A stretch of DNA of 38,851 nt, taken from Rhodoferax sp. (GTDB taxonomy: Bacteria > Pseudomonadota > Gammaproteobacteria > Burkholderiales > Burkholderiaceae_C). The stretch is from NCBI RefSeq assembly GCF_018063565.1, contig NZ_JAGPBB010000033.1, forward strand, positions 1 through 38,851, given 5' to 3'. A program made the translations under genes and the position numbers. The notes under the pieces are model-generated. The model had not been told where the DNA came from, did no database searches, and saw only the letters and a program-made list of their open reading frames with translations. Of the stretch, positions 6,063 through 33,937 are shown piece by piece. Positions within the stretch are counted from its first letter, which is position 1, and each line of letters starts with the position of its first letter.

Positions 6063-6095
6063 TTCACAATCCAACCCTGGCGACAAAGGCATGAC

Positions 6096-6773: not shown

Positions 6774-6834
6774 ACTAATTGCGTCGACAGCGCTCAGATG
6801 CTGCGTTTGTCATCATCAACCGGAGAACCACAAT

Positions 6835-7488: not shown

Positions 7489-7586
7489 AGGTCAAAGCAA
7501 ACATCATGGCAAACACGGTTTTGCAGCCGCGACACCGTGCTTGACCGCTACAATGCGGCACTTCTTTATGCAAGATTCGTGCCTCT

Positions 7587-8225: not shown

Positions 8226-9040
8226 ACCCGCCAGCGGATGCCATCGCAGGTGCCAAAACGCTGGTGTCCGAGCCGCCACAACAACCGCAACTCTCGTGCG
8301 ACAGTTGCCTGGAAGTCAAACACCTGCAGAAGTTCTACGGCAGCCGAAAGGCCGTCAAGGATGTGTCGCTGTCCGTGCGCAAAGGTGAGGTGGTCGGCCT
8401 GCTTGGCCCCAACGGTGCCGGCAAGACCACGTCTTTTTACATGATTGTGGGGCTGGTGCGGGCCAGCGCCGGCGAAATCACCATTGACGGCCAGTCGATC
8501 GAGCATATGCCGATCCACCGGCGCTCCCGTCTGGGTTTGAGTTATTTGCCCCAAGAGGCGTCCATTTTTCGCAAACTCAATGTCGAAGACAACGTCCGGG
8601 CAGTGCTGGAACTGCAACTCGACGACAAGGGACGCCCATTGCGAGCGCCCGAGATCGAGCAACGGCTGACTTCCTTGCTGCAGGACCTGCGGGTGGACCA
8701 TCTGCGCCAGTCCAGCGCCTTGTCGCTGTCGGGGGGCGAGCGCCGGCGTGTCGAGATTGCGCGTGCCCTGGCCACCAACCCGCGCTTTATCCTGCTGGAC
8801 GAACCCTTTGCCGGCATTGACCCGATCGCGGTCATCGAGATCCAACGAATCATCGGTTTTCTCAAAAATCGCGGCATCGGGGTGCTGATTACCGACCACA
8901 ACGTGCGTGAAACCCTGGGCATTTGTGACCACGCCTACATCATCAGCGACGGCAGTGTGCTGGCGCAAGGTACACCGGCCGACATCGTCAACGATGTGGA
9001 CGTGCGCCGGGTGTATCTTGGCGAACATTTCAGAATGTGA
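8222..9040 (+). CDS. lptB: LPS export ABC transporter ATPase LptB
   Basis: Cytoplasmic ATPase that powers LPS extraction with LptF/LptG. 272 residues with Walker [10 protein letters not shown] (62-70), Q-loop YLPQEASIF, the ABC signature [15 protein letters not shown], Walker [13 protein letters not shown] and the switch His in LITDHNVRE. These match the LptB family closely. Starts at a GTG overlapping the lptA stop. Compared with E. coli LptB it has an N-terminal extension of about 30 residues containing CDSC (residues 26-29); a start at a later codon would need another initiation site, and I see no strong ribosome binding site there. rpoN follows with a 1-base overlap. Confidence 0.95.
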
Positions 9041-10635: not shown

Positions 10636-10651
10636 GACTTTGCGGAAACTT

Positions 10652-11947: not shown

Positions 11948-12422
11948 AGCGCTTTTCGCCACGCCGGCTGGCACAGCGCGGGCCTTGGTCCTGGACACCA
12001 ATGTGGTGCTGGATTTGCTGGTGTTTCAGGACCCGGCCTGCGCACCGTTGCTGAACGCAATGAAAAATACCCGTTTGCGCTGGATCGCCACCCCGGCCAT
12101 GCGCGACGAGTTGGCCCGCGTGTTGGCGTATCCACAAATTGTTGCGCGGCTGGGTCGCCCACCGCACCCCACCGACCCTGCACACGCGGCCACTGAGGTG
12201 TTGCGGTGCTTTGACGCCATGACGCAGGCGGTACCGGCCGCTGGCAAAGCCCCGGTTACTTGCGGCGATCGTGATGACCAGATCTTTATCGACCTGGCGG
12301 TGGCACACGGCGCCATCCTGTTGAGCAAGGACCGGGCCGTCCTTTGTATGAAGAAACGCCTTCTAGCGCAATCTGTCGTTGCTTTGACTGCTATACCTTA
12401 TGTAAGATTTGAGTCGTCATAG
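11937..12422 (+). CDS. PIN-domain putative ribonuclease (no antitoxin visible)
   Basis: 161 residues with a PIN fold: the first acidic site is Asp20 in VLDTNVVLDLL, the Glu is in TPAMRDELARVL, and the third cluster is GDRDDQIFIDLA, followed by GAILLSKDRAVL. All expected acidic residues are present, so nuclease activity is possible. It resembles the COG1569-type PIN proteins, which often stand alone. The GTG start overlaps the end of the methyltransferase gene by 11 bases in another frame, suggesting translational coupling. No small antitoxin gene lies on either side. The last ~20 codons (12361-12422) are lower in GC than the rest and may derive from an intergenic repeat. Confidence 0.8.
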   Translation: MHPEALFATPAGTARALVLDTNVVLDLLVFQDPACAPLLNAMKNTRLRWIATPAMRDELARVLAYPQIVARLGRPPHPTDPAHAATEVLRCFDAMTQAVPAAGKAPVTCGDRDDQIFIDLAVAHGAILLSKDRAVLCMKKRLLAQSVVALTAIPYVRFESS

Positions 12423-12434
12423 GGCACGCGCCGC

Positions 12435-12488
12435 GCTATCAAACCCAGCATGGCCTACGCTTGATAACCCGCGTAGGTCTTCGCTGAC
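12435..12488 (+). repeat. Diverged copy of an intergenic hairpin repeat (copy 1)
   Basis: GCTATCAAA is followed by a 7-bp inverted repeat (CCTACGC at 12454-12460, GCGTAGG at 12471-12477) around TTGATAACCC, then TCTTCGCTGAC. The layout matches two other copies in this window, at 27174-27217 (same strand) and 35229-35282 (opposite strand). I remember similar GCTAT...AGCGCTT...AAGCGCTAGAGG...TTTGAC elements between genes of many Comamonadaceae; this could not be checked here. The rest of the gap to phaC (12489-12687) shows nothing I can assign. Confidence 0.5.
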
Positions 12489-12687
12489 ACAGCACACGGT
12501 GTAACCCGGCGTCAGAAAATTTGCACGCCATCAGGGGTGTGAGCGCGCGCCCAATATGGCTGAATGCGGATGTTTGAATCGCGCGTCAGGCCACCGTTAT
12601 TTTCGATACCTGAACTGGTGGCGGCTTTGATCAAAAGGATGTCAATCCGTCGATTGAAACAACCTCACACCGGCCTAACCCACGACG

Positions 12688-14436
12688 TCACTTTTCCAGC
12701 ACATAGGTCCCCGGTGCATCGGCCAGAGCCGGGAACTTGCGCCGCCCGGCACCATAGGCCGGCACCATGTCGCCAGTGCGCGCGTTCAGCCAGGCAGTCC
12801 AGTCGGGCCACCAGCTGCCGGTTTTCTTCGGCGCGTCGGCCAACCAGGTCTGGGCCTCTTGCTGCGCCGTTGGCTCACCAATCCAGTACGAGCGCTTGGG
12901 CGGGTCCACCGGTGGGTTCACAATGCCCAGAATGTGTCCCGAGGTGGACAACACAAAGCGGACCGGCGCATCCGGACTCAGCACGTGGCGAATGCGGTAG
13001 CACGCGGTCCACGGGGCAATGTGGTCGTCCTTGGCTGTCACTGCATACAGCGGCTGCGTGATGCGGCCCAGGTTGATCGGCTCATCGGCAATGGTCAGCG
13101 CGTCGGGCTGGATCAGGCGGTTGTGCAGGTACATCTGGCGCAGGTAATACGAATGCATGGCTTGCGGCATGCGCGTGGCGTCCATGTTCCAGAACAGCAC
13201 GTCAAACTTGGGCAGTTTTTCGCCCAGCAGATAGCTGCTGACCCAATAGTTCCAGATCAGGCTGTTGGAGCGCAGCAGTCGAAACGACGCGGCCATCTCG
13301 TTGCCGTCCAGATAGCCTTTTTTAGCCATCAGCTTCTCCAGTCCGCTCAGGCTTTCTTCGTCGATAAACACGCCTATCTCGCCGGGGTGCGAAAAGTCGG
13401 TCAGGGTGGCAAACAGCGTCCAGTGGGCCACTGGTATGCGATCGGCACCAAAACGCTTGTTGGCCCAGGCCATGTAGGTGCTCACCAGCGTACCACCAAT
13501 GCAATAGCCCACCAGATGCACCTGCGGCACCTTGCACAGTGCCGTCACCTCACGCACGGCGGCATCCACCCCTTGCAGCAAATAATCGTCAAAACGCACG
13601 TCGCGCATTTCGGCGTCGGGGTTCTTCCAACTGGTGATAAAGACCGAAAAGCCCTGGTCGGTCAGATGTTTGACCATGCTCTTTTGCGCCGTCAGGTCCA
13701 GAATGTAATACTTGTTGATCCACGGCGTGACGATCAGAATCGGCATGGCGCGCACCTCCGTCGTGGTGGGCGTGTAGTGGATCAGCTCCAGCAAGCGGTT
13801 GCGAAACACCACCTTGCCAGGCGTGATGCCCAGGTCTTTGCCGACCACAAAGGCATCGGGCTCGACCATCAGGATGTTTTTGGCATCCATGTCGCGCATG
13901 AAGTTTTGCCAACCGGCCAGCACGCTTTGCCCTTGCGTCTCCAAGTAGCGGTTGATGGCCTTCGGGTTGAGCCAGAAGAAGTTGGTGGGGGCCAGCATGT
14001 TCAGCCCGACGCGTTGCCAGAAATCAGCCACCTGGCGCTCATGCTCGGTCAGATCCGGCGTTTGCGCGACCGCGGTTTGCAGACGGTGCGTCAGCAGCAG
14101 GTATTGTTCTTTGATCAAGTCCCAGGCTGGCCAGTCTGACCAAACCGGGTCGGCAAAACGCTCATCATCGGGATTGCGTGGCTCCGGGTCACCCTCAGGG
14201 ATGCCCAGCATGCGCCGCGCTCCGTGGCCATAGATTTTCAGCAAATCAGACGTCAGTGCCGAGGTAAAGCCCCACAGCTCCTGGGGATGCCGTGCCCAGG
14301 CCGCCTGTGCCTTGAGCTGTGACGACAGCATGCCAAAGGGGTCTAACGCCTGAGTGAGGGCATTCAACCCGGCCTCAAGGGGCGCGGGCGTCTTGGTGAC
14401 AGGCTCAGGTGATATGTGGGTGGCTTGCTTGAACAT
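12688..14436 (-). CDS. phaC: Class I poly(3-hydroxyalkanoate) synthase PhaC
   Basis: Polymerises (R)-3-hydroxyacyl-CoA into storage polyester at the granule surface. The 582 residues fit class I synthases. An N-terminal PhaC domain (residues ~75-245) has WSDWPAWDLIKEQYLL and the conserved FWLNPKAINRYLETQG. The alpha/beta-hydrolase domain carries the modified lipase box GYCIGG with catalytic Cys312, the Asp in KDDHIAPW (Asp471) and the His in SGHILGIVNPP (His501); the spacing matches the known Cys/Asp/His triad. AAAGGG lies about 9 bases before the ATG. phaA, phaB and phasin genes are not adjacent, so this synthase stands alone, divergent from the BTAD regulator. Long antisense frames over it are composition artefacts. 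Confidence 0.97.
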   Translation of the reverse strand: MFKQATHISPEPVTKTPAPLEAGLNALTQALDPFGMLSSQLKAQAAWARHPQELWGFTSALTSDLLKIYGHGARRMLGIPEGDPEPRNPDDERFADPVWSDWPAWDLIKEQYLLLTHRLQTAVAQTPDLTEHERQVADFWQRVGLNMLAPTNFFWLNPKAINRYLETQGQSVLAGWQNFMRDMDAKNILMVEPDAFVVGKDLGITPGKVVFRNRLLELIHYTPTTTEVRAMPILIVTPWINKYYILDLTAQKSMVKHLTDQGFSVFITSWKNPDAEMRDVRFDDYLLQGVDAAVREVTALCKVPQVHLVGYCIGGTLVSTYMAWANKRFGADRIPVAHWTLFATLTDFSHPGEIGVFIDEESLSGLEKLMAKKGYLDGNEMAASFRLLRSNSLIWNYWVSSYLLGEKLPKFDVLFWNMDATRMPQAMHSYYLRQMYLHNRLIQPDALTIADEPINLGRITQPLYAVTAKDDHIAPWTACYRIRHVLSPDAPVRFVLSTSGHILGIVNPPVDPPKRSYWIGEPTAQQEAQTWLADAPKKTGSWWPDWTAWLNARTGDMVPAYGAGRRKFPALADAPGTYVLEK

Positions 14437-14872
14437 GATTCATACCCTTTGTTAAAAGCGCGCCATGCTTGGACGCGCAACTGACATAGTACGGGCGCAC
14501 GAAGCCGCCCGCGTGCGATTAGGTCAAATATGCATCAAAAAACCAGATCTGCCGGCCCGGCTCAGGCTCTTCTGATAGCGCATGAAGGGGCCACTGAGAC
14601 CTTGCAGTACGCCCACCTCACTTCTCAGCAGCGTTGCACCGACGCTAAACCATGGCATGATCCATGCACAGGGCAAAGATGCTCCCCAGGTTGCACAAGG
14701 CTGGCTTACCCAGAAATTTTTTTGCAAATCAGTGCAGATCAGGTGCGTCTGGCGATTCTTCGCAATGCCAGTGGCATTTGATGTTACGCGTGCGACCTTG
14801 CTATTTGCGATTTATGGTGTAGCTTTTCGTACTTTTTTGTTAGACAAACCCTAACTGCCACCCACTGACACC
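14437..14872. other. Divergent intergenic region between phaC and the BTAD regulator
   Basis: 436 bases without a convincing gene; the open frames at 14524-14781 on either strand have no family resemblance. The phaC-proximal part holds GC-rich inverted repeats, including CGCACG...CGTGCG around 14497-14518 and an imperfect pair around 14459-14478. The regulator-proximal part (about 14798-14850) is AT-rich with several T runs and is the likely promoter region for the regulator; I cannot fix a -35/-10 pair. Confidence 0.5.
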
Positions 14873-17800
14873 ATGCTGCTGCTTCTTGGCGTTCCATCCT
14901 GGCAGAAGCCCAATGGTGAAGCGGTTCAGTTACCCGCCAGTCTGCCGGTTTGTCTGCTGATTTACCTGACGTGCCAGGGGCAGTGGGTTGATCGTGACAC
15001 GCTGGGGACTTTTTTTTGGCCAGACCGTGCGCCCGATGAAGCCAGACATAACCTGCGCGTTAACCTGCATCGCGTGCGGCAATTGCTGATCGCGCGGGGA
15101 TGTGAGGCCTGCTTGCAAAGTGAACGCAGCCGGGTCAGCCTGCTGCTCCCCAGTGACCTGCAAACCCTGCAGATGGCCGTAACGACGGCTGACGGTGCCA
15201 CGCTGGCCAAACTGGCACCGCTGCAATGGCTCAGCAGCTTTCGAGTGACCGGATTCGCGGTTTTTTTTGAATGGGCTGAAGCTCTGGAAACGCAGTTGCG
15301 CCTGGACTGGCGGTCGGCCGCTGCGCTGGCCCTCAAAACCGGCTCGCGTGACCAATCACCTGCGCCCTGGTTGGATGCCTTGCGCACGAAGCTCGCCCTG
15401 CTTGAACCTGATGTTGAAACGCCCGAGGATGCAGCGCCATCCGCGGCCACCCCTGCCAACCTGGTTGGGCGCAACACCCCTTTGCAAACCCTGCGTCAGC
15501 TACAGTTTCGCGCGGTGTTGCTGACGGGTGAAGCGGGCATGGGAAAGACAACCCTGCTGGCAGCTGCCTTTCAGCAGGTGCCCACGCTGTATGGCCGCGA
15601 AGGGCTGACACAAATTCCCTACCGCCCGCTAGTTGAATGCCTGCAAGCCCACATGCCTGCCTTGCGCGCGCGCCTGCGCAACACTGATGACGAGCTGAGC
15701 GCCTATCGCCTGGATCTGGCCCGGCTGCTGCCACAACTCGCACCCAAAGAGGCGCTACCGCCTTTGGACATGCATACTGCCAAGGCGCGTCTGCTCGAGG
15801 TATTGGCCCGGGTGTTTGAGGGCTTGAGTCCCTGGCTGGTGGTGGACGACTTGCAGTGGTGCGATGCCGCCAGTCTGGAATTTCTGGCGCTACTGACGCA
15901 CCGCGGGGTGGTGCGCTGGCGTGCTGGCGCCAGGGCTTATGAACTCAGCAGCAGTCAGCGCGAATGGGTGTCGAGCCTGGAGCGTAGCGGTCACTTGCAT
16001 CAGCTGGTGCTGCCCGGTCTGGGTCGCCATGCAGTCGAAAGTTTGTGTCAGCAACTTCGTCCTGATCAGAGCTGGCAGACCGAGCAGGTGCTGCGTTTGT
16101 GCGATCTGAGCGGAGGCAACCCTTTCGCTTTGCAGGAGATGCTGCGATTTGATCCATTCGTGCTGGCGACTGGTGTGCCCACAGACAGCCGCAGCCCGCC
16201 CTTGCCAGTGAGTGACATGCTGCAACGCAGGCTCAGGGTGCTGACACCTGCCGCCCGGTCATTGGTGGAAGCCGCCGCTGTGATGGGACAACCCATGCCG
16301 CTGGCGGTGCTGGCGCAGGTGGCCGATTTGCTGCCCGCCCAACAGTTGCAGGCGGTCCGGCTGGCGCTGGAGTCAGATTTGCTGCGCGAAGATGCCAGCG
16401 GGCTGGCGTGCCGCCACGACTTGATACGTTACGCCGTGCTGGCCGACTTGAGCGCCAGCCATCAGCAGGTTTTGCACCACAATGCTGCGCTGGCCATGGC
16501 CGCACGCGCCGAAGGCGAAGCCGAACCACTGGCCGTGGCGGCGCACTGGACGGCGGCGCACGAACCACAGACGGCGCTGGCCTGGATGCTGCGCGGTGCC
16601 GTTCAGTTGAAACGACGCGGCCGGTTTGAAGAAGCGCGTGGCCTATGGAGCCGCGTGGCGCAAGAGTCGCTGGATGCCACCCAGGCCCTCCTGGCCCGGT
16701 TGGCTCTGGCCGAGTGTGAACTGCTAGACAACCTGAGTTCTGGCCGCATGGCACTGGAGTTGATTCTGGCGCAGGTACCCGCCGTGGCCGACCCACTGCA
16801 GCGGGAACACATCGAAGCGCAAACCCTGTCAGGCCTGGTGGACAACTTGGTGTTTGCCGGCAACATGGCGGCAGCGCGCCACCACGCCGGGCTGCTGCGT
16901 CCGCTGATGCCCAGACTGCGGGTGGACGACCGCATCCACGCCTGCGAAGTGCTGATTGAATTGGCCATGCGTGAACCCGACATTGCCGCAGCATGGTCAC
17001 TGCTGGCACAAGTGAAATTGCTGGCCCCCAACAACCCTTCGACACTCAGCTTTGAAGGCCAGATTCATTGGTTTGCCGGCAATGCACTGGCAGCACGCGA
17101 TGCCTTTGACGCGCTGCTGGCCAATCACCCCGCCTATTGCAGTGGTCTGACAATTGAAAATGACCTGGCGGTGATGCTGTTTGCCCTGGGTGATCTGGCG
17201 CGGGCTGAAACGATGGCGAGGCGCAGTCTGCTCAGTTGGGCGGGCGTGGCGCATACCGAGACGCTGTCGCTGCTGGTGCTGGGGTCGGTGTTGACCAGCG
17301 CTGGGCGCTATACCGAAGCTCTGGAGGCCCTGGGCCAGGCGCACCATTTGGCGACAGTACAAGGTTCAGCCCTGTTTGTGGCGGAGGCGCAAGTGCGCCG
17401 TGCCCGCCTGTGGATGCAATGTGGACAGTACGACATCGCACTGCAAGATCTTGACCAGGCGGATGAGGCCTTGCACGGCAGCACCGACCCGCTACGGGTA
17501 TCGCAGTACGCGGTGGTGCGGCTGGATTGCCAGATTGCCGCCGGGCTATTGCCTGATCGCGCACTGATCGAGCGGGTGCAGGGCCTGACCGCTCGCAGCA
17601 GCCACCCTCTGATGCTGGCGCGTCTGGCACGCATGCAGGTGGTTCTGGCGCTGTCCGATGGTCAACTTGATCTGGCCGCTCAAGCGGCTCGCCAGCAAGC
17701 CGAAACAGCAGGTGCCGCGGGTTTGCTGGAGACCCTTGTGGATGCCCGACTGCTACTGGCGTGTGCTTCTTCAAGCGCTGACGAACGCCGATTGCTGATT

Positions 17801-24525: not shown

Positions 24526-26136
24526 ATGATGAAATTCACCAAAAACGCGCTGGCGACCGCCATGCTGCTGGGCTGTGCCGGACTGACCCTGGCTGCCACC
24601 ATCCCTGCCGGCGTTCAATTGCACCCCAAACAGGAAATGGTGCGCAACAACGGCTCGGAGCCCGACACGCTTGACCCGGCACGCGCCGAAGGCGTGCCCG
24701 CCAACAACGTCATTCGCGACCTGTTTGAGGGCCTGACCGCCGTAGACGGCGCTGGCAACACGGTGCCTGGCGTGGCCGAGAGCTGGAAACAGGTCGATGC
24801 CAAGACCTGGGTGTTCAAGCTGCGGCAAAACGCCAAGTGGTCCAACGGCGACCCGGTGACGGCAGAAGATTTCATCTACGGCATGCGCCGCTTTGTTGAC
24901 CCCAAGACAGCGTCTGAATACGCCGCCACCTTTGGTATCTTCTTTGTGGGTGGCAAAGAGATTGTTGAAGGCAAGAAACCGCCGACAGAATTGGGCGTGA
25001 AAGCGCTCGACAAATACACGCTGGAGCTGAAAACCCCGTTCCCGGTGGGCTTTATGCCCTCGCTGGTGTCCAACCTGCAACTCGGCCCCGTCCACAAAGC
25101 CAGTCTCGAGAAGAACGGCAAAGACTGGACCAAACCCGGCAACCTGGTGAGCAATGGTGCCTACACCCTGGCCACCTGGGACGTGAACGCCAAGATCGTT
25201 TTGGCCAAAAGCCCCACCTACTGGGATGCCAAGAACGTGCAGATCACCAAGTTCACCTACCTGGCAGTCGAAGACGGCAATGCCGACGTGAAACTGTTTG
25301 AGTCAGGCGAGAACGACATGGTGTACCAGTTGCCGCCAGGCACCTTTGAGAAGTACAAGGCACAGTACCCGAAAGAGATCCACAACTCGCCCATGCTGGG
25401 TCTGCGCTATTACTCGTACCTCAACACCGACCCGCTACTCAAGGACATCAAGGTGCGCAAGGCCTTGTCGATGGCCATTGACCGCGACATCCTGGCGCAG
25501 CGTGTCACCGCAGACGGGCAGAAACCCGCTTATGGCGTGCTGGTGGAAGGCGTCGAGGGCGGCGAGCCCACCACCTACGACTGGACCAGCTGGCCGATGG
25601 ACAAGCGCGTGGCCGAAGCCAAAAAGCTGCTGCTTGAGGCCGGTGTCAAACCCGGCACCAAGCTGAAATTCAGCTACAACACCAGTGAATACCACAAGAA
25701 GATGGCGATTTTTGCAGCCTCCGAGTGGAAAACCAAGCTCGGGCTGGACGTGGAACTGGATGCCATGGAGTTCAAGGTGCTGATCAAGAAGCGCAACGAC
25801 GGTGAGTACCAGATCGCCCGCAACGGCTGGGTGGCCGACTACAACGATGCCACCACCTTTTTGACGCTGGTGCAGTGCGACTCCGACCAGAACGCGCAGA
25901 AAAACTGCAACCGTGAGGCAGAAAAGCTCATCGATGAAGGCAACCAGAGCCTGGATGCGGCCAAGCGCAAGAAGCTCTTGACCCAAGCCTCCAAGATGAT
26001 CATGGACGACTACCCGATGCTGCCGCTGCTGCAATACACCCAGCCGCGTCTGGTCAAGGCCTATGTGGGTGGCTACACCAGCACCAACAGCATGGACCGC
26101 TACCGCGCCAAAGAGTTCTACATCATCAAGCATTGA
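24526..26136 (+). CDS. oppA: Periplasmic oligopeptide-binding protein OppA
   Basis: Substrate-binding lipid-free periplasmic component of an oligopeptide importer. The start is ATG 24526 (MMKFTKN), with GGA about 9 bases upstream; the longer open frame has no signal peptide at its N-terminus. The signal peptide ends ...GLTLAA near residue 24, and the 536-residue length matches OppA/MppA. Family landmarks: MVRNNGSEPDTLDPARAEG, NNVIRDLFEGLTAVD, VPGVAESWKQVDAKTW, GNLVSNGAYTL, AMAIDRDILAQRV-like sequence and RNGWVADYNDATTFL, ending MDRYRAKEFYIIKH, almost as in E. coli OppA/MppA. Peptide specificity, or murein tripeptide use as in MppA, cannot be told. It heads the oppABCDF cluster, with a terminator-like hairpin just after it. 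Confidence 0.95.
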   Translation: MMKFTKNALATAMLLGCAGLTLAATIPAGVQLHPKQEMVRNNGSEPDTLDPARAEGVPANNVIRDLFEGLTAVDGAGNTVPGVAESWKQVDAKTWVFKLRQNAKWSNGDPVTAEDFIYGMRRFVDPKTASEYAATFGIFFVGGKEIVEGKKPPTELGVKALDKYTLELKTPFPVGFMPSLVSNLQLGPVHKASLEKNGKDWTKPGNLVSNGAYTLATWDVNAKIVLAKSPTYWDAKNVQITKFTYLAVEDGNADVKLFESGENDMVYQLPPGTFEKYKAQYPKEIHNSPMLGLRYYSYLNTDPLLKDIKVRKALSMAIDRDILAQRVTADGQKPAYGVLVEGVEGGEPTTYDWTSWPMDKRVAEAKKLLLEAGVKPGTKLKFSYNTSEYHKKMAIFAASEWKTKLGLDVELDAMEFKVLIKKRNDGEYQIARNGWVADYNDATTFLTLVQCDSDQNAQKNCNREAEKLIDEGNQSLDAAKRKKLLTQASKMIMDDYPMLPLLQYTQPRLVKAYVGGYTSTNSMDRYRAKEFYIIKH

Positions 26137-26154
26137 GCCTTTGACTCAAGCTTG

Positions 26155-26191
26155 CCGCCGACCCGTCACACGTGTCGGCGGTTTGTTTTTT
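26155..26191 (+). terminator. Terminator-like hairpin between oppA and oppB
   Basis: CCGCCGAC (26155-26162) pairs with GTCGGCGG (26174-26181), giving an 8-bp GC-rich stem with an 11-base loop, followed by TTTGTTTTTT. It begins 18 bases after the oppA stop. Since oppBCDF follow on the same strand, it most likely terminates part of the transcripts or protects the oppA mRNA 3' end, giving more binding protein than permease. Confidence 0.8.
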
Positions 26192-26246
26192 GCGGGCCGG
26201 ATGCCATAAGCACCTGATCTGCTGACCTGTTACAGGAGTTTTGCTG

Positions 26247-27167
26247 ATGTGGACCTACGCGCTGCGCCGCCTGCTGGCGACCATCCCGACGCTGCTGGCG
26301 GTCATCACGCTGTGCTATTTGCTGCTGCACCTGACCCCCGGCGGCCCGTTTGACACCGAGCACAAGATTCCCGAGGCGGTGCTGGCCAACCTGCAGGCCA
26401 AGTACCATCTCAACGAGCCGCTATGGAAACAGTATTTGCTTTACCTGGGCAGCCTGCTGCAGGGCGACCTGGGCGCGTCTTTTCGCTACGAAGACTGGAG
26501 CGTCAACGATTTGGTGGCCAAAGCCTTGCCGATCTCAGCGGCCATTGGCGGCGGCTCACTGCTGATGGCGATTTTTATTGGCGTGGCGCTTGGCACCATG
26601 GCAGCACTCAAACAAAACAGCCTGGCCGACTACCTGACCATGATGATGAGCAGCGTGGGCAGCGTGTTCCCGTCGTTCGTCATCGGACCGCTGCTGATTC
26701 TGGTGTTTGCGTTGTGGCTGGGCCTGGCACCGGCGGGTGGCTGGGACAACTTTGCGCCACGCTACATGGTGCTGCCGATGGCGCTGCTGATCTTCATCAA
26801 CGTGGCCACCATCGCCCGGGTGATGCGCGGCAGCATGATCGAGGTGCTGGGCAGCAACTTCATCCGCACCGCACGTGCCAAGGGCTTGCCGATGCGCACG
26901 CTGGTGCTGCGCCACGCCATGAAACCGGCGCTGCTGCCGGTGGTGTCGCTGATCGGGCCGATGGCGATCTCCTCCATCACCTCGGCCGTGGTGACCGAGT
27001 CGGTGTTTTCACTGCCGGGGCTGGGCAAGCTGATTGTGACGGGTGCGAGCAACCGCGACTACACCCTGGTGCTGGGTCTGGTGGTGCTGGTGACGGTCGT
27101 CACGGTGGTGTTTAACCTGCTGGTCGACCTGGCCTACGCGCTGCTGGACCCCAAGATTCGCTATTGA
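26247..27167 (+). CDS. oppB: Oligopeptide ABC transporter permease OppB
   Basis: Inner-membrane permease subunit, 306 residues, with about six transmembrane helices. ATG 26247 is chosen over TTG 26241 because AGGAG lies 8 bases before it. The N-terminal MWTYALRRLLATIPTLLAVI helix and TPGGPFD loop are typical OppB features. The EAA-type coupling loop FIRTARAKGLPMRTLVLRHA contacts an ATPase subunit. FSLPGLGKLI and DPKIRY close the protein. It is separated from oppA by the hairpin at 26155-26191 and from oppC by a 60-base gap holding an intergenic repeat. Confidence 0.95.
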   Translation: MWTYALRRLLATIPTLLAVITLCYLLLHLTPGGPFDTEHKIPEAVLANLQAKYHLNEPLWKQYLLYLGSLLQGDLGASFRYEDWSVNDLVAKALPISAAIGGGSLLMAIFIGVALGTMAALKQNSLADYLTMMMSSVGSVFPSFVIGPLLILVFALWLGLAPAGGWDNFAPRYMVLPMALLIFINVATIARVMRGSMIEVLGSNFIRTARAKGLPMRTLVLRHAMKPALLPVVSLIGPMAISSITSAVVTESVFSLPGLGKLIVTGASNRDYTLVLGLVVLVTVVTVVFNLLVDLAYALLDPKIRY

Positions 27168-27173
27168 ATGTAT

Positions 27174-27217
27174 TGCTACCAGCGTTTATTGCATAAGCGC
27201 TAGAGGCGATTTTGACC
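27174..27217 (+). repeat. Intergenic hairpin repeat (copy 2) between oppB and oppC
   Basis: TGCTACC is followed by AGCGTTTAT (27181-27189), TGC and ATAAGCGCT (27193-27201), a 9-bp stem with one G-T wobble, then AGAGGCGATTTTGACC. It fills almost the whole 60-base oppB-oppC gap inside an operon. The arrangement matches copies at 12435-12488 and 35229-35282 and is the closest of the three to the form I remember from Comamonadaceae intergenic regions. Confidence 0.6.
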
Positions 27218-27227
27218 CAATATTCAC

Positions 27228-28139
27228 ATGTTCAAAAACAAAGATGACGCGCTGGTGGCCAGCCTTGGTGCAGCGCTGGAGCCCGAGCTACAGGGCCACA
27301 GCCTGTGGTACTCGGCGCGCCTGCGCTTTATGCGTAACCGGGCGGCGGTATTCAGCCTGGGGCTGCTGTCACTGATCACCTTGGCCTGCATCGTCGGCCC
27401 GTGGCTGCTACCGCACGCGTTTGACTCCGCCGACTGGGACGCCATGAGCAAGCCGCCCACACTGCAGAACTGGCACCTGTTTGGCACCGACGACTCCGGG
27501 CGCGACCTGCTGGTGCGCACCCTGATGGGCGGGCGCGTGTCGCTGATGGTCGGGCTGATGGCCACGCTCTCATCGGTCAGCCTGGGCATTGCCTGGGGTG
27601 CCGTGGCCGGTTTTATGGGTGGCAAGGTGGACGCGGTGATGATGCGCGTGGTGGACATGATGTACGCCGTGCCCTACCTTCTGATTGCGATCTTGATGGT
27701 CACGCTGCTGGGGCGTGCCTTTTACCTGGTGGTGATCACCATCACCGTGTTTTCATGGATGGACATGGCTCGCGTGGTGCGCGGCCAAACCTTGTCGCTT
27801 CGAAGCAAAGAGTTCGTTGAAGCCGCGCGCGCCATTGGCGTGCCGACGCGTCGCATCATCTTCGGGCACATCGTGCCCAACCTGCTGGGCATTGTGGTGA
27901 TCTACACCACCGTCACCGTACCGGGGGTGATACTGACCGAATCGGTGCTGTCGTTCCTGGGGCTTGGCATTCAGGAGCCGATGACGAGCTGGGGCGTGCT
28001 GATCCATGACGGCGCCCAGGTGATGGAAATCTCGCCGTGGATCTTGATCTTTCCCGGCTTGATGCTCTCAGCCGCGCTGTATTGCTTCAACTACATTGGC
28101 GACGGGCTGCGCGATGCACTCGACCCCAAAGACCGATAG
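27228..28139 (+). CDS. oppC: Oligopeptide ABC transporter permease OppC
   Basis: Second permease subunit, 303 residues, with an N-terminal cytoplasmic tail (MFKNKDDAL...) and about six transmembrane helices. Typical OppC/DppC landmarks: HLFGTDDSGRDLLVRTLMGGRVSL after the first helix, MMRVVDMMYAVPYLL, the coupling loop FVEAARAIGVPTRRIIFGHIVPN, and FLGLGIQEPMTSWGVLI followed by GLRDALDPKDR. There is no strong ribosome binding site before the ATG (AATATTCACATG), so expression may depend on transcription from upstream. oppD starts 9 bases after its stop. Confidence 0.95.
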   Translation: MFKNKDDALVASLGAALEPELQGHSLWYSARLRFMRNRAAVFSLGLLSLITLACIVGPWLLPHAFDSADWDAMSKPPTLQNWHLFGTDDSGRDLLVRTLMGGRVSLMVGLMATLSSVSLGIAWGAVAGFMGGKVDAVMMRVVDMMYAVPYLLIAILMVTLLGRAFYLVVITITVFSWMDMARVVRGQTLSLRSKEFVEAARAIGVPTRRIIFGHIVPNLLGIVVIYTTVTVPGVILTESVLSFLGLGIQEPMTSWGVLIHDGAQVMEISPWILIFPGLMLSAALYCFNYIGDGLRDALDPKDR

Positions 28140-28148
28140 GGCTTGGCC

Positions 28149-29153
28149 ATGAACTTGCTTGAAGTCAAAGACCTCGCCGTGCAGTTTGCGACCCAGGATG
28201 GCACGGTCTATGCCGTCAATGGCCTGAGTTTTGCCCTGGACAAGGGGCAAACGCTGGGCATTGTGGGCGAAAGCGGCTCGGGCAAAAGCCAGACCGTCTT
28301 GGCGCTGATGGGCTTGCTGGCGCGCAATGGCCGCGCCACGGGCCATGCGCTGTACCACGGGCAAAACCTACTGACACTGCCCGCACCGGAGCTGAACCGG
28401 ATCCGCGGCAACCGCATGGCGATGATTTTTCAGGACCCGATGACCTCGCTCAACCCCTACCTGACGGTGGAGCGGCAAATGACCGAGGTGCTGCAACTGC
28501 ACAAGGGGCAAGACCGCGCCTCGGCGCGTGCTGCGTCTGTGCGCATGCTCGACGCAGTGCGTATCCCCGAAGCCGCCAAGCGCGTGGACATGTACCCGCA
28601 CGAGTTCTCAGGCGGCATGCGCCAGCGCGTGATGATTGCCATGGCGCTGCTGTGCGAGCCCGAGGTGCTGATTGCCGACGAGCCCACCACCGCCCTGGAC
28701 GTGACGGTGCAGGCACAAATGCTGCTGCTGCTGCGCGACCTGCAGCAGGACTTTGGCACCGCCATTGTGCTGATCACACACGATCTGGGCGTGGTGGCCG
28801 GGCTGTGCGACCAGGTGGTGGTGATGTACGGCGGGCGTGTGATGGAGCAGGGCAACGCGCAGCAACTCTTCAAGAACGCCACCCACCCGTACACGCTGGG
28901 CCTGCTCAAAGCCGTGCCGCGCATGGACCGCGATGACGCGTCGCTGCTGGCCATTCCCGGTGCACCACCCAATATGGCGCGCCTGCCCAAAGGCTGCCCG
29001 TTCAGCCCGCGCTGCACCTTGGCCGATGCGCGATGCCACAGCACACTGGCACCGCTGCAGAGCCTGGCCGCACCGAGCGGTCACCTGCGCGCCTGCCACC
29101 GCGAAATCGCCACGGTGCAAGCCGCCGTGCAACAGGAGGCCGCCCATGGCTGA
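28149..29153 (+). CDS. oppD: Oligopeptide ABC transporter ATPase OppD
   Basis: Cytoplasmic ATPase of the importer, 334 residues. The start is ATG 28149 (MNLLEVKDLAVQF); TTG 28143 is a less likely alternative. Walker A GESGSGKSQ, Q-loop IFQDPMTSLNPYL, ABC signature FSGGMRQRV, Walker B VLIADEPTTALD and switch LITHDLGVVAG are all present. The C-terminal oligopeptide/dipeptide domain has PYTLGLLKAVPRMD and a Cys motif, KGCPFSPRCTLADARC, with a later HLRACH, which in related ATPases binds an Fe-S cluster or metal. It overlaps oppF by 8 bases (ATGGCTGA). Confidence 0.95.
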   Translation: MNLLEVKDLAVQFATQDGTVYAVNGLSFALDKGQTLGIVGESGSGKSQTVLALMGLLARNGRATGHALYHGQNLLTLPAPELNRIRGNRMAMIFQDPMTSLNPYLTVERQMTEVLQLHKGQDRASARAASVRMLDAVRIPEAAKRVDMYPHEFSGGMRQRVMIAMALLCEPEVLIADEPTTALDVTVQAQMLLLLRDLQQDFGTAIVLITHDLGVVAGLCDQVVVMYGGRVMEQGNAQQLFKNATHPYTLGLLKAVPRMDRDDASLLAIPGAPPNMARLPKGCPFSPRCTLADARCHSTLAPLQSLAAPSGHLRACHREIATVQAAVQQEAAHG

Positions 29154-30138
29154 TACCCGCCAACCCATTCTGTCGGTGCGCGACGTCAAGGTCGAGTTCA
29201 GCATCAAGGATGCCAAAGCCTGGCCGTGGACCCCACCGCGCAGCCTCAAAGCCGTGGGCGGCATCTCGTTTGACCTGTACGCGGGTGAAACGCTGGGCGT
29301 GGTGGGCGAGTCAGGCTGTGGCAAATCCACCCTGGCGCGCGCGTTGCTCAACCTCAACCCGGCCAAGTCCGGCAGCATCCGCTGGATGGGGCAGGAAATG
29401 CAGGGGGCTTCTGAATCAGCCTGGCTGTCGGTGCGCAAAGACATCCAGATGATCTTCCAGGACCCGTTGGCCAGCCTGGACCCGCGCATGACGGTGGCGC
29501 AAATCATTGCCGAGCCGCTGCGCACGCACCACCCTGAGCTCAGTCACGACGCTGTGATGACCCGGGTGCGCGCCATTATGGGGCGCGTGGGCCTGACGGC
29601 GCAGCAGATCAACCGCTACCCGCACGAATTCTCTGGCGGGCAGTGCCAACGCATCGGCATTGCGCGCGCGCTGATTCTGCAGCCCAAGCTGATCGTGTGC
29701 GACGAGCCGGTGTCCGCGCTGGACGTATCGATTCAGGCACAGATCATCAATTTGCTCAAAGAGCTGCAGGCCGAGTTTGGCCTGGCACTGATCTTTATCG
29801 CGCATGACCTTGCGGTGGTACGCCACATCAGCCACCGCGTGATGGTGATGTACCTGGGCCGCGCGATGGAGTTTGCCGACAAACACGCGCTGTACACCGA
29901 CCCGCGGCACCCCTACACCCAGGCTCTGCTCTCGGCCATTCCGATCCCTGACCCGGAGCTGGAGCGCAACAAGGTGGTGCAACTGCTGCAAGGCGACCTG
30001 CCGTCGCCGATGAATCCGCCTTCAGGCTGTGTGTTTCGCACCCGCTGCCCCAAAGCGCAGGCACAGTGTGCGGATGCCGTACCCGAACTGCGCACCACGA
30101 CAACGCCCGGCTCGCAAGTGGCCTGCCTATTGACATGA
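29146..30138 (+). CDS. oppF: Oligopeptide ABC transporter ATPase OppF
   Basis: Second ATPase of the importer, 330 residues. The frame is open to 28933 within oppD, but the true start is ATG 29146 behind AGGAGG, overlapping the oppD stop. An insert after the first strand (AWPWTPPRSLKAVGG) is typical of OppF. Walker A is GESGCGKST, Q-loop IFQDPLASLDPR, signature FSGGQCQRIGIARAL, Walker B LIVCDEPVSALD and switch FIAHDLAVVRH. The signature motif has QCQR, where QRQR is more common. The C-terminal domain has PYTQALLSAIPIPDPE and the Cys set GCVFRTRCPKAQAQC. A strong terminator follows 7 bases after the stop, closing the operon. Confidence 0.95.
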   Translation: MADTRQPILSVRDVKVEFSIKDAKAWPWTPPRSLKAVGGISFDLYAGETLGVVGESGCGKSTLARALLNLNPAKSGSIRWMGQEMQGASESAWLSVRKDIQMIFQDPLASLDPRMTVAQIIAEPLRTHHPELSHDAVMTRVRAIMGRVGLTAQQINRYPHEFSGGQCQRIGIARALILQPKLIVCDEPVSALDVSIQAQIINLLKELQAEFGLALIFIAHDLAVVRHISHRVMVMYLGRAMEFADKHALYTDPRHPYTQALLSAIPIPDPELERNKVVQLLQGDLPSPMNPPSGCVFRTRCPKAQAQCADAVPELRTTTTPGSQVACLLT

Positions 30139-30389: not shown

Positions 30390-31661
30390 ATGACATCCCT
30401 GCAGCTTTTCCTTTGGATTGTGGGCGCCATCCTCTTGCAGTTGGCGATCTACCTTGGCATTGTTTTTTCACGCCACTGGCTGAACTACCAGACCCTGCGC
30501 CTGAGTGTCGAACGTGGCGAGCTACCGACTGCGCTGGCGCCCGACCCGCTTGAATCTGAAAACCTGCCTGCGGCGTGGAGCGGACTGCGCGACTTCAAGG
30601 TGATTCGCAAGGTGGTTGAAGATGAGGCGCAGGACATCTGCTCGTTTTATCTGGCTCCACAGGACGCACAGCCCTTGCCGCATTTTTGGCCCGGTCAGTT
30701 CTTGACCTTTCGACTGGCGATTGCAACAGCAGACGGTGACGCCGAGCGGCTAACGCGCTGCTATTCGCTGTCGGACGCACCGCGTCAAGATGCCTATCGG
30801 GTGTCCATCAAGCGCGTGCCCGCCCAAAACAGCCATGCGCCCGGGCGCTCGTCGAACTTCTTTCATGATCAGGTTCAGGTGGGCAGCGTCCTGCAGCTGC
30901 GCGCGCCCGCAGGGCACTTTCATATTGACGCTGGCCATGGACCGGTGGTGCTGATTGCTGGCGGCATCGGCATCACACCCATGCTGAGCATGCTCAACTG
31001 GTGCCTGCCCGCCCAGCCCGGGCGCGAGGTCTGGCTGTTTTATGGGGCGCGCACCCGCCATGAACTGATGGCGCATGGGCACCTGAAGGCATTGGCCGAC
31101 CAACACCCGAACTTTCACCTGCATATTTGCCTGAGCCAAGCCGCTACGGGTGACGTGGCGCGACAAGACGATCAGCATCCTGGTCGGGTGGATGTAGCGC
31201 TGCTGCGCCGGTTGCTGCCGCTCAAGCCCTACCACTACTATCTGTGCGGCCCTGCCCAAATGCTGGAAACCATGGTGCCGGCGCTGGAGGACTGGGGCGT
31301 GCCGGATGCACACATCCATTTTGAAGCCTTTGGCCCGGCCAGCGTCAGACGCAAAAACGCGGGGACCTCAGCGATGGAGGATGAACCGGGTTCCGCCACA
31401 GGCCAAGTCGTCACGGTGACTCTTGCCAGATCTGGCAAGCAATTCGCTTGGGACGCCGCCGCGGGCAATTTGCTCGACTGGGCCGAATCGCATGGTATTG
31501 CTGTGGATTCAGGTTGCCGCTCGGGTAGCTGCGGCAGTTGCCAGACCCGCATTGCCGCAGGCCAGGTGCGCTATCGGCAGAAGCCAGACTTTGACCCGGA
31601 ACCCGGTAGCTGCCTGATGTGCGTGTGCCAACCCAAAACCAGTGTGACCCTGGAGCTCTAG
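30390..31661 (+). CDS. Membrane-anchored NAD(P)H:flavin/[2Fe-2S] oxidoreductase
   Basis: 423 residues. The frame is open from 30267, but ATG 30390 (MTSLQLFLW) follows GGAAA and starts directly with the membrane helix (residues ~4-27). The FNR-type core follows: FAD-binding RCYSLSDAP and the flavin stretch KRVPAQNSHAPGRSSNFFHD (~125-160), then NAD-binding VVLIAGGIGITPMLSM and the terminal YYLCGPAQMLE. A C-terminal plant-type ferredoxin domain holds Cys376, Cys381, Cys384 and Cys408/411 in GCRSGSCGSCQ and CLMCVC. It resembles Hcr-like and phthalate-dioxygenase-reductase-like flavoproteins but is membrane-bound. It adjoins the b-type membrane protein (stop and ATG 1 base apart) and the octaheme cytochrome, suggesting a one-operon electron path from NAD(P)H to the periplasm. 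Confidence 0.87.
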   Translation: MTSLQLFLWIVGAILLQLAIYLGIVFSRHWLNYQTLRLSVERGELPTALAPDPLESENLPAAWSGLRDFKVIRKVVEDEAQDICSFYLAPQDAQPLPHFWPGQFLTFRLAIATADGDAERLTRCYSLSDAPRQDAYRVSIKRVPAQNSHAPGRSSNFFHDQVQVGSVLQLRAPAGHFHIDAGHGPVVLIAGGIGITPMLSMLNWCLPAQPGREVWLFYGARTRHELMAHGHLKALADQHPNFHLHICLSQAATGDVARQDDQHPGRVDVALLRRLLPLKPYHYYLCGPAQMLETMVPALEDWGVPDAHIHFEAFGPASVRRKNAGTSAMEDEPGSATGQVVTVTLARSGKQFAWDAAAGNLLDWAESHGIAVDSGCRSGSCGSCQTRIAAGQVRYRQKPDFDPEPGSCLMCVCQPKTSVTLEL

Positions 31662-32240
31662 ATGGAAAAATCCCTCTGGCGTCGTCATGTACTGCCCTTT
31701 ACCTTTTTGCTCGGCGCAATGGCTGCGGCAGCCATTGCCGGTGACTACCTGCTGCATTGGTTCAAGCTGGTGTGGGTCGGTCGCTATTTGGGCATCCCCG
31801 GCACGCTGCTGATCATCGGGTCACTGTATTACTCTCTGCGCAAGCGCAAGTATGTGAGTAGCGGCGAGCCCAAGATGCTGCTGAAACTGCACGAATACAG
31901 CGCCTGGCTGGGCTCGCTGATGGTGCTGATCCACGCCGGCGTGCATTTCAACGCCATCCTTCCCTGGCTGGCCACGGTGGCGATGGGCATCAACGTGATC
32001 AGCGGCCTGGTGGGCAAGATGTTGCTTAACAGCGCGCGCCGACATGTGCAAGGCCAGCGCAGCCATTTCCAACTGCGCGGCCTGTCAAAACCCGAGGTGG
32101 AGCAGGCGGTGTTCTGGGATGCGGTAGCGCTGGACGCCATGGCGCGCTGGCGCAAGGTGCACATCCCGATCTTTATCGTGTTTTCGGTATTGGCACTGGG
32201 CCACATCGTCAGCGTGTTTTTGTTCTGGGGCTGGGTATGA
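31662..32240 (+). CDS. Small predicted diheme b-type membrane cytochrome
   Basis: 192 residues with about five hydrophobic helices (~10-33, 41-58, 73-93, 99-120, 165-190). His77 and His91 lie 14 residues apart on helix 3, and His167 and His181 lie 14 apart on helix 5. This is the spacing of the two heme-ligand pairs on helices B and D of cytochrome b, and helices 3 and 5 run in the same direction. Two stacked b hemes are therefore a reasonable model. The loop between helices 4 and 5 is basic (NSARRHVQGQRSH), which fits a cytoplasmic position. No c-type heme motif is present. The start directly follows the reductase stop and the end overlaps the octaheme gene by 4 bases (ATGA). The family is not one I can name. 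Confidence 0.75.
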   Translation: MEKSLWRRHVLPFTFLLGAMAAAAIAGDYLLHWFKLVWVGRYLGIPGTLLIIGSLYYSLRKRKYVSSGEPKMLLKLHEYSAWLGSLMVLIHAGVHFNAILPWLATVAMGINVISGLVGKMLLNSARRHVQGQRSHFQLRGLSKPEVEQAVFWDAVALDAMARWRKVHIPIFIVFSVLALGHIVSVFLFWGWV

Positions 32241-32965
32241 ACAAGTGGCTGAAGATCATCCTGGCCTTCAATCTGGGGCTGTTGGCGGCGCTGGTGTTTA
32301 TCTACCCCGAGCTGATGGTGAGCCCGGGCAAGCTCATTCCCGGCCACAAGGCGCTGGAGGGCGACTGTTTTGCCTGCCATGCGCCGTTGACCGGTGCCAG
32401 TTCGCTGCGTTGCACCAGTTGCCACAAGCCAGCCGACATTGGCCTGCTGGCCACCAACGGGCGGGTGCTAACCAAGCCAGCCACCAAGGCCGCCTTCCAC
32501 CAGGAGCTGAGCAGCCAGGACTGCGTGGCCTGCCACAGCGACCATGCCGGTGTCAAACGCTTTGCCCGCGCCCGCTCGTTTGACCACAACCTGCTTAAGA
32601 AAGCCACGCGCGATCAATGCCAGACCTGCCACAAAACCCCGACTGATTCGCTGCACAAGCAAATTACCGGCAACTGCCTGCAGTGCCATACGCAGGAGAA
32701 ATGGACCCCCGCCACCTTTGACCACAACCAATATTTTGTACTCGACCGCGACCACAACGAAACCTGTGTCACCTGTCATGTGCGCAACGACTACAGCCGT
32801 TTCACCTGCTACGGCTGCCACGAGCACACGCCCGACAACATCCGGCGCAAGCACATCAAGGAAGGCATCAGCAAGTTTGACAATTGTGTGGAGTGCCATC
32901 GCAGCGCCGATGAGCACGACATCAAGGGCCGCAATGAAGGTCGTGGCAAGCGTGACAATGACTAA
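32237..32965 (+). CDS. Membrane-anchored octaheme c-type cytochrome
   Basis: 242 residues with eight CXXCH heme sites at residues 44-48, 59-63, 96-100, 128-132, 147-151, 177-181, 191-195 and 217-221 (CFACH, CTSCH, CVACH, CQTCH, CLQCH, CVTCH, CYGCH, CVECH). Ten other His residues (such as GHKAL, FHQEL, FDHN twice, RKHIK) are enough to supply bis-His ligands for all eight. One N-terminal hydrophobic helix (~5-27) without a clear cleavage site suggests an inner-membrane anchor with the hemes in the periplasm. Short spacing and low aromatic content resemble class III/c7-type multiheme proteins. The last ~20 residues are charged and heme-free. It overlaps the b-type gene by 4 bases. Likely electron acceptor: a periplasmic or extracellular partner not in this window. 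Confidence 0.93.
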   Translation: MNKWLKIILAFNLGLLAALVFIYPELMVSPGKLIPGHKALEGDCFACHAPLTGASSLRCTSCHKPADIGLLATNGRVLTKPATKAAFHQELSSQDCVACHSDHAGVKRFARARSFDHNLLKKATRDQCQTCHKTPTDSLHKQITGNCLQCHTQEKWTPATFDHNQYFVLDRDHNETCVTCHVRNDYSRFTCYGCHEHTPDNIRRKHIKEGISKFDNCVECHRSADEHDIKGRNEGRGKRDND

Positions 32966-33001: not shown

Positions 33002-33937
33002 ATGATTTCCCTGTTGCCCACCCGGTACCTGACACCGCAGCACTTGCTCAAGGTGTCGATCGGCGTGGCGGCGACGACCATCACCCTCAAGACCCTGGCT
33101 TGGTACGTCACCGGCTCAGTCGGCTTGCTGTCAGATGCGATGGAATCGTTCGTGAACCTTGCCAGCGCCATCTTCGCCTTGATGATGGTGACCATCGCGC
33201 AACGCCCCGCGGATCAGGAGCACCCCTATGGCCACAACAAGGCCGAGTATTTTTCGTCGGGTTTCGAAGGGATATTGATCGTTGGCGTATCGATCGGCAT
33301 CATCTGGGCTGCCGTTTCGCGACTGCTGCAGCCGCAGCCGCTGCAAGAGCTGGGCTGGGGGCTGGCCCTGTCCGTGTTAAGTTCTGCGCTGAATGGTTTG
33401 CTGGCCTGGGTGATGTTTGGCGTTGCCAAAAGACACCGGTCCATCGCGGTGGAGGCTGATGCCCGCCATTTGGTGACCGATGTCTGGACCTCGGTGGGCG
33501 TGGTGCTGGGGCTTACCGGCATGGCCCTGACCGGCTGGCTGTGGCTGGATGCGCTTGCCGCCATTGGCGTGGCGCTGAATATTCTGTGGGAAGGCGGCCA
33601 CCTGATGTGGCGCTCATCGCAGGGTTTGATGGATCAGGCGGTTGAACCCGATGTGCAGCGCGATATTGACATGGTGTTGGCCAGTTTTGATCAGCCAACC
33701 ATTCGCTTTGACCATGTCATCACCCGTCGCTCAGGGCAACGCCGCTTTGTTGACCTTCACATGCACATGCCGGCCAACTGGACGCTGGGGCAAGCCGCCC
33801 AGGTCAGGGGTAACGTCGAGCAGGCCTTGATGCGGGCGGTGCCGGGTCTACGTGCCACGATCCAGCTGCTGCCCAGCGATGTGGAGGCGAACCAGGACGA
33901 AACTGCCGAACCGCCAGCGACCGCTACCAACTCATGA
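33002..33937 (+). CDS. Cation diffusion facilitator (divalent metal efflux)
   Basis: 311 residues, six transmembrane helices and a cytoplasmic C-terminal domain of the CDF family. Family marks: GLLSDAMESFVNL on helix 2, RPADQEHPYGHNKAEYFSSGFEG after helix 2, and DARHLVTDVWTSVGV on helix 5, with His156 and Asp160 as metal ligands. On helix 2 Asp45 is kept, but the second ligand position is Ser49, not the Asp of E. coli FieF, so specificity may differ; iron, zinc and manganese are all open. The C-terminal domain has VDLHMHMPANWTLGQA. It is 36 bases after the octaheme gene, possibly in the same transcript, and a palindromic repeat follows directly. Confidence 0.92.
   Translation: MISLLPTRYLTPQHLLKVSIGVAATTITLKTLAWYVTGSVGLLSDAMESFVNLASAIFALMMVTIAQRPADQEHPYGHNKAEYFSSGFEGILIVGVSIGIIWAAVSRLLQPQPLQELGWGLALSVLSSALNGLLAWVMFGVAKRHRSIAVEADARHLVTDVWTSVGVVLGLTGMALTGWLWLDALAAIGVALNILWEGGHLMWRSSQGLMDQAVEPDVQRDIDMVLASFDQPTIRFDHVITRRSGQRRFVDLHMHMPANWTLGQAAQVRGNVEQALMRAVPGLRATIQLLPSDVEANQDETAEPPATATNS

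Follow-up and report, generated by a model that had tools for sequence, protein, structure and literature searches.

A conserved gene trio in Rhodoferax encoding a putative inner-membrane route from NAD(P)H to an octaheme cytochrome c

Introduction

In most of the routes known to carry electrons from metabolism to multiheme cytochromes of the periplasm, the electrons pass through quinol. In NADPH oxidase and ferric reductase, and in the Fre-MsrQ-MsrP system, electrons pass from NAD(P)H and FAD to two transmembrane b hemes associated with HX13H histidine pairs. Here, we analyze a 38,851-nucleotide stretch of Rhodoferax sp. (contig NZ_JAGPBB010000033.1 of assembly GCF_018063565.1; hereafter the window, with its own genome labeled G000), in which three plus-strand genes at positions 30390 to 32965 encode a flavin and iron-sulfur reductase (RED), a membrane protein with two HX13H pairs (CYB), and an octaheme c-type cytochrome (CYC). 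This trio is real and conserved, and its sequence features make it probable that the products constitute an inner-membrane NAD(P)H:periplasmic multiheme cytochrome c oxidoreductase that operates without quinone.

By analogy, the trio would work like NADPH oxidase or like Fre together with MsrQ, but with a heme wire replacing O2 or MsrP as the end of the path; it is unlike them in that CYB does not match PF01794 and in its additional [2Fe-2S] cluster and octaheme cytochrome. The accessible part of He et al. (2017; PMC5566968) describes porin-less clusters in which a short HX13H protein of five helices accompanies an unassigned periplasmic multiheme cytochrome c and “another redox protein.” The trio shares with them the short membrane protein with two HX13H pairs, the multiheme cytochrome, and the redox protein, and it may also resemble them in lacking a porin, the window having no MtrB/PioB match. 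It differs in gene order, CYB being encoded upstream of the multiheme gene where the membrane protein of those clusters is often downstream, and in its FAD/NAD/[2Fe-2S] reductase, the type of the redox protein in those clusters being left unnamed in the accessible text. Given these clusters, the assertion of a sequence-only reading of this DNA that no such complex had been described was too strong; the trio is a variant of a kind already glimpsed and is not wholly new. Apart from those unnamed clusters (PMC5566968, as accessible), the trio is not named in the literature searched. The same text reports no significant homology between short and long HX13H proteins and proposes quinone contact for the membrane proteins of PCC3 and PCC4.

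Composition of the trio

The reading frames of RED, CYB, and CYC are all open at the coordinates in Table 1. CYB and CYC share 4 bases (ATGA), as had been noted, and RED and CYB abut with zero gap (TAGATG) instead of being separated by the single base that the sequence-only reading had counted. RED matches the Pfam domains FAD_binding_6, NAD_binding_1, and Fer2, each above cut-off, and has a single N-terminal hydrophobic stretch at residues 7 to 25, which bears out its description as a membrane-anchored protein with FAD, NAD, and ferredoxin domains. With the three defining domains present, it fits an FNR-type reductase with a C-terminal [2Fe-2S] domain; it scores 91.9 bits against the curated nqrF cut-off of 295, and its Fer2 domain is C-terminal. 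Among 77 orthologs, what we take to be the RxYS motif for FAD is found in 77, the GGxGxTP and CGP motifs for NAD in 72 and 76, respectively, and the Fe-S cysteine pattern in 76. The assigned start lines up with the N termini of nine of the ten other congeneric alignment rows, the tenth being truncated. In a profile search of solved structures, the nearest relatives of the reductase part were flavohemoproteins (best E 7.4e-64), a likeness that suggests NADH as donor; RED lacks their globin and adds the membrane anchor and the C-terminal Fer2 domain.

The two 14-spaced histidine pairs recognized earlier in CYB are H77/H91 and H167/H181. These four residues, together with H32 and H95, are invariant in alignments of 26 and 55 rows, both of which include the window CYB, and two HX13H pairs plus an SGxxG motif are present in all 76 distinct orthologs. 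The window CYB has no Pfam or NCBIfam match at E up to 1. Among 26 orthologs searched at E up to 0.1, DUF4405 is matched by 9 (best 1e-4) and cytochrome b561 by 3 (best 1.7e-5). PF01794 (Ferric_reduct) is unmatched by the window protein and by all 26 orthologs; a profile search of solved structures returned zero matches at E up to 1. CYB is a putative diheme b protein, and charges and hydropathy would place H77 and H167 on the cytoplasmic side and H91 and H181 on the periplasmic side of the membrane. The possibility that a ferric-reductase-like gene (FRE) found beside some trios is related to CYB was rejected, hhalign giving a probability of 0.9% against its membrane part.

CYC contains 8 CXXCH motifs and 10 further histidines. 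Nine of these ten do not vary across an alignment of 51 sequences; across 22 rows of greater diversity, six of the nine are invariant and three nearly so. Nine invariant spare histidines would suffice for eight bis-His hemes, in agreement with the sequence-only reading. When the CYC region was base-shuffled 2000 times, 1991 shuffles contained zero CXXCH and 9 contained one, and no other frame in the window has at least two CXXCH. Pfam matches were Paired_CXXCH_1, Cytochrom_c3_2, Cytochrom_CIII, and Cytochrome_C7; the DmsE-type decaheme model of the MtrA group, TIGR03508, gave 17.7 bits against a cut-off of 192.2, and a profile search of solved structures gave one weak match (E 0.0027). Among 73 distinct orthologs, 71 have eight CXXCH, one (L103) has 10, and one of 125 aa has three; an inserted stretch adds two CXXCH in the CYC of L051, L054, and L061. 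Such additional motifs are as expected of a wire built from repeats. The N-terminal hydrophobic stretch is read as a membrane anchor. A catalytic octaheme reductase of the tetrathionate, hydroxylamine, or nitrite type was set aside, given the nine invariant spare histidines and the absence of matches to those families.

Conservation of the trio as a unit

A scan of species genomes yielded 485 stretches encoding a CYB relative, perhaps including distant ones, and the best 80 were taken as named loci; these are the closest relatives, so that counts are skewed toward close kin, and their flank lengths vary. CYB has RED at most 400 bases upstream and CYC at most 700 bases downstream in 79 of the 80, and the sole exception, L123, has only 182 bases of contig remaining. 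Twenty-five further loci came from a family draw of 399 genomes and a class draw of 369 genomes, with G000 counted in both; RED was present in 24 and CYC in all 25. Within the genus, RED accompanied CYB in 13/13 loci and CYC in 10/13, the three misses being contig ends. The frequent separation of members in other genomes, which the sequence-only reading had named as the outcome to look for against it, was not seen. Pairwise distances of RED, CYB, and CYC correlate with r of 0.72 to 0.77 across 68 loci, species descent not being controlled. Gene content, gene order, conservation, motifs, and invariant ligand candidates are direct observations.

A long CYB match was found in 13 of 36 genomes of the genus, G000 included, with that of G026 truncated by a contig end; G017 holds a CYB fragment, likewise at a contig end. 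Among 24 relatives from other families, CYB matches were weak or absent. At E < 1e-70, CYB matched in 21/399 genomes of the family draw and 8/369 of the class draw. Titles of trio loci include Rhodoferax, Gallionella, Sideroxydans, Ferrigenium, Accumulibacter, Azonexus, Dechloromonas, Propionivibrio, Thiobacillus, Sulfuritalea, Aromatoleum, Zoogloea, and Methylococcales, among others, and these include genera with known roles in iron cycling, denitrification, and phosphate accumulation; many carriers of the trio are freshwater bacteria. A plasmid collection searched with CYB gave zero matches, and no second CYB or CYC match was found in G000, a genome 92.77% complete. A second reductase near the Aromatoleum trio (L112) was considered as part of a second trio and rejected, with neither a further HX13H membrane protein nor a further multiheme gene seen beside it; the adjoining gene is presumably Rieske oxygenase-like.

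Relationship to PCC3 and divergent trios

In the one pair compared, CYB aligned to a PCC3-type inner-membrane protein with an hhalign probability of 98% (E 1.3e-13, 96 columns). The aligned part runs from helix 2 to helix 4 of CYB and takes in the first histidine pair and SGxxG, with the second pair outside it. By this profile comparison, CYB is a remote homolog of the PCC3-type protein, a small addition to He et al. (PMC5566968) to be taken with the caution that the short proteins in the accessible text are not confirmed as CYB. Weak CYB matches in the genus, family, and class searches led to the same class: 24 of 28 loci inspected hold a PCC3-like protein (matching the L040 member at E of 1e-15 or below), all 24 with two HX13H pairs and SGxxG. 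All but two adjoin a frame with 21 to 27 CXXCH, the two being at contig ends, and many of the loci have a second large multiheme frame. We use “PCC3-like” since a porin was not searched for in these loci, which otherwise match PCC3 as described in the accessible parts of PMC5566968 and PMC10734462; the remaining loci L044 and L045, with 10-CXXCH frames, are excluded from the counts. At L185, the PCC3-like protein adjoins a multiheme frame of 70 CXXCH that reaches the edge of the stretch.

PCC3 thus resembles the trio in having a membrane protein homologous to CYB, with the same two HX13H pairs and SGxxG, and differs in the size of that protein (about 300 aa), in a periplasmic cytochrome of 21 to 27 rather than 8 hemes, and in an extracellular multiheme gene that the window trio lacks. 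Its large c proteins align to CYC at 23 to 31%, which CXXCH alone may explain. A pyridine-nucleotide-disulfide-type reductase, unrelated to RED, lies within about 3 kb of the PCC3-like protein in 13 of the 24 loci (L031, L040, L043, L046, L179, L186, L187, L189, L191, L192, L193, L195, and L196); its 4Fe-4S and Pyr_redox domains were identified by Pfam for the L040 member only. The PCC3-like loci would differ from the trio in carrying a 4Fe-4S pyridine-nucleotide reductase in place of a Fer2-type one, and the presence of these reductases hints that the wider CYB family may be linked to NAD(P)H.

Two divergent trios of 28 to 31% identity, L182 and L190, encode a FAD/NAD/Fer2 reductase, an HX13H protein, and a 7-CXXCH protein, that of L182 having no Pfam match at 1e-5. 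Both adjoin multicopper oxidase, CopB, and Metal_resist genes, named by Pfam for L190 and, for L182, by Pfam for one gene and by homology to L190 for the rest. It is possible, as a tentative proposal, that HX13H inner-membrane proteins, those of PCC3 included, are one family of quinone-independent transmembrane electron wires, each with a periplasmic multiheme cytochrome c and its own cytoplasmic pyridine-nucleotide reductase; the same membrane protein would have recruited reductases of two unrelated types (FNR/[2Fe-2S] and disulfide-oxidoreductase-like/[4Fe-4S]), with the trio as the minimal porin-less form. If true, this would alter the published quinone-pool model of PCC3. The trio offers a small testable model for the inner-membrane part of PCC3.

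Proposed electron path

In the proposed mechanism, RED would be held on the cytoplasmic face by one helix and would transfer hydride from NADH (or NADPH) onto FAD, after which the [2Fe-2S] cluster would relay single electrons onward. The cytoplasm-side heme b of CYB (H77/H167) would accept them from RED and pass them to the periplasm-side heme b (H91/H181). The N-terminal helix of CYC would hold it in the membrane and leave the rest of the protein in the periplasm; CYC would take electrons from CYB through eight bis-His hemes and pass them to periplasmic acceptors. We infer cofactor binding, topology, direction, the pyridine nucleotide used, and complex formation. Of the paths that employ every conserved part, the simplest leads from NAD(P)H through FAD, [2Fe-2S], and two b hemes and ends at eight c hemes, and the continuous path put forward in the sequence-only reading is, with the trio intact at nearly all loci, the best reading of the sequences.

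Electron export is downhill in redox potential and along the membrane potential. The module should thus dissipate energy, for which redox balancing, detoxification, or metal handling fits better than respiration; a direct NAD(P)H route, if true, would bypass quinone and run down the membrane potential instead of storing it, which would argue for those same roles. The identity of the acceptor is the least certain element. We favor a periplasmic redox supply for metal or NO/O2 stress over extracellular respiration, a preference that rests on the CDF cation-efflux, SHP/DHC, and copper contexts of the trio.

Several observations weigh against this interpretation. One lineage (L079/L197) has CYB and CYC without RED in a 17-kb stretch, about 8 kb on each side, and there a quinone or other donor may serve. 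RED is broken across two reading frames in L106 and L032, seemingly one contig. In eleven of the 24 PCC3-like loci, the 3 kb or so around the membrane protein contain no pyridine-nucleotide-disulfide-type reductase; one of the eleven has such a gene at a distance of about 8 kb. AlphaFold gave only a weak model of CYB (mean pLDDT 64.8), and a Protein Data Bank search with this model gave chance-level matches, many of them BAR-domain proteins (best E 0.2); the CYC model is unusable (48.3). CDF and SHP neighbors are missing from most of the 80 loci. In addition, a close CDF ortholog (at least 74% identity) accompanies the trio in 4 of 9 congeneric genomes and occurs in 7 of 13 that lack the trio, so that CDF presence does not track the trio. 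In these comparisons of 22 congeners, G017 is scored as trio-bearing on its fragment alone, and several of the trio-less genomes are incomplete.

Gene neighbors and alternative functions

The genes identified nearest the window trio encode an oligopeptide ABC transporter, a CDF transporter, and an M14 peptidase. Recurring neighbors across the 80 loci are CDF (18), DHC (14), FRE (12), TerB-like (10), and SHP/DUF1924 (8), each labeled by Pfam on one member, as was one of two small PepSY groups of 7 loci each. Response regulators stand by 17 loci and histidine kinases by 14, groups that may mix unrelated genes, and a ZIP group stands by 5; these three labels and that of the second PepSY group are our presumptive assignments from sequence. 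A FastTree tree was limited to the 46 loci having 1.5 kb of sequence to either side; on it, the CDF label (14 loci) requires at least nine changes and the SHP/DHC/FRE label (11 loci) six, with no shuffled-label baseline.

One alternative is that the trio reduces DHC or SHP, so that SHP acts on O2, NO, or another ligand. FRE lies directly 5′ of the trio in 10 of the 80 loci, mostly after DHC and sometimes SHP, and L174 has the whole row SHP-DHC-PepSY95-FRE-RED-CYB-CYC-TerB-CDF behind a divergent regulator. The accessible text of Meyer et al. (2010; PMC2909971) links SHP operons with regulators, among them sensor kinases, and with CzcD, and cites NO dioxygenase activity; the word octaheme is absent from it. 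G000 carries an SHP (DUF1924), DHC, and CytB/diheme chimera cluster on another contig (C171), and the window trio stands separate from any such operon, unlike the trios that SHP, DHC, or FRE adjoin in some lineages. SHP or DHC is absent from the flanks of most of the 80 loci, however, and DHC, found in 8/9 congeners with the trio, is also found in 10/13 without it. SHP operons bring their own CytB according to the accessible text of PMC2909971, and FRE of the same operon could do the feeding. We consider this function of the trio unlikely.

About as improbable is a metal-linked periplasmic reductase, by which the trio would shift the redox state of Fe, Mn, or Cu for efflux, resistance, or uptake. 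The window CDF, a possible operon partner of the trio, matches Pfam Cation_efflux at 1.4e-44; its best NCBIfam model is MntE, at 262.9 bits against a cut-off of 500, and it passes the CDF superfamily cut-off. CDF neighbors are found on either side of the trio, with the repeated label changes noted above, and the ZIP-labeled group and the copper genes beside both divergent trios (2/2) point the same way. Against it stand the distribution of CDF orthologs among congeners and the fact that copper resistance generally favors oxidation over reduction.

More doubtful still is a quinone-linked role, as proposed by He et al. for PCC3 (PMC5566968, accessible text), in which CYB oxidizes quinol or reduces quinone and RED serves another route. 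The DUF4405 and cytochrome b561 matches of some CYB orthologs and the L079/L197 lineage with no RED nearby argue for it; RED directly before CYB at nearly all loci inspected and the retention of a reductase by both divergent trios argue against it.

Extracellular electron transfer (EET), raised in the sequence-only reading, would have CYC feed a porin-cytochrome conduit of the MtrAB or PCC3-like kind in the outer membrane, so that iron, humics, or electrodes could be reduced. The homology of CYB to the PCC3-type protein counts for it, as do trio loci in Gallionella, Sideroxydans, and Rhodoferax and a congener (G001, contig C115) in which about 16 kb hold the trio together with PCC3-type genes and a multiheme cluster. 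G000 has, on contig C51, an Mtr-type cluster with an MtrB/PioB porin and three 10-CXXCH genes nearby. MtrB is slightly more common in congeners with the trio (7/9) than in those without it (7/13, one by a fragment), numbers too few to tell. As to the linked porin or decaheme genes that the sequence-only reading had suggested looking for, the window holds no second multiheme gene and no MtrB/PioB match, no barrel predictor having been run; both MtrB/PioB matches of G000 are on other contigs. MtrB was not found in the trio-bearing congeners G003 (99% complete) and G018 (94%). The Mtr-type cluster of G000 has its own 9-CXXCH gene and a further gene that we take to be b-type, both of which count against EET by the trio. 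Porin-less clusters of this kind are less likely to serve EET according to the accessible text of He et al. (PMC5566968). In the wider family, the accessible text of PMC8788666 reports that both PCC3 clusters of strain ES-1 decreased on Fe(II), a result tempered by strain CL21, in which one PCC3 inner-membrane gene increased (PMC12442390, as accessible). EET by the trio is weakly supported and, of the functions weighed here, the least likely.

Feature positions and upstream genes

Table 1. Positions of the trio, its motifs, and neighboring and related genes
Feature	Sequence	Position	Strand	Description
RED	Window	30390..31661	+	423 aa; membrane anchor, FAD, NAD, and C-terminal [2Fe-2S] domains
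RED FAD motif	RED protein	residues 123-126		R-x-Y-S
RED NAD motifs	RED protein	residues 191-197; 286-288		GGIGITP; CGP
RED [2Fe-2S] cysteines	RED protein	C376, C381, C384, C408		
CYB	Window	31662..32240	+	192 aa; putative diheme b inner-membrane protein; two HX13H pairs, SGxxG at 114
CYC	Window	32237..32965	+	242 aa; octaheme c-type cytochrome; N-terminal hydrophobic stretch 4-22
CDF	Window	33002..33937	+	Cation-efflux transporter (MntE/FieF-like), 36 bases 3′ of CYC
Oligopeptide ABC transporter genes	Window	24526-30138	+	5′ of the trio
CYB and octaheme CYC	L197 (G671)	7556-8940		No reductase in 17 kb; stretch GC 36%
70-CXXCH multiheme frame	L185	1-6114		Adjoins PCC3-like protein
Divergent trio and copper genes	L182 (G443)	3696-9748		
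Divergent trio and copper genes	L190 (G545)	3440-9508		
SHP, DHC, CytB/diheme chimera cluster	L198 (G000:C171)	6147-8142		
Mtr-type cluster	L199 (G000:C51)	5760-17133		MtrB porin, three 10-CXXCH genes, 9-CXXCH gene

The oligopeptide ABC transporter genes preceding the trio on the same strand are apparently unrelated to it. They are not kept directly beside the trio in the 13 congeneric loci, some of which show ABC-domain matches elsewhere.

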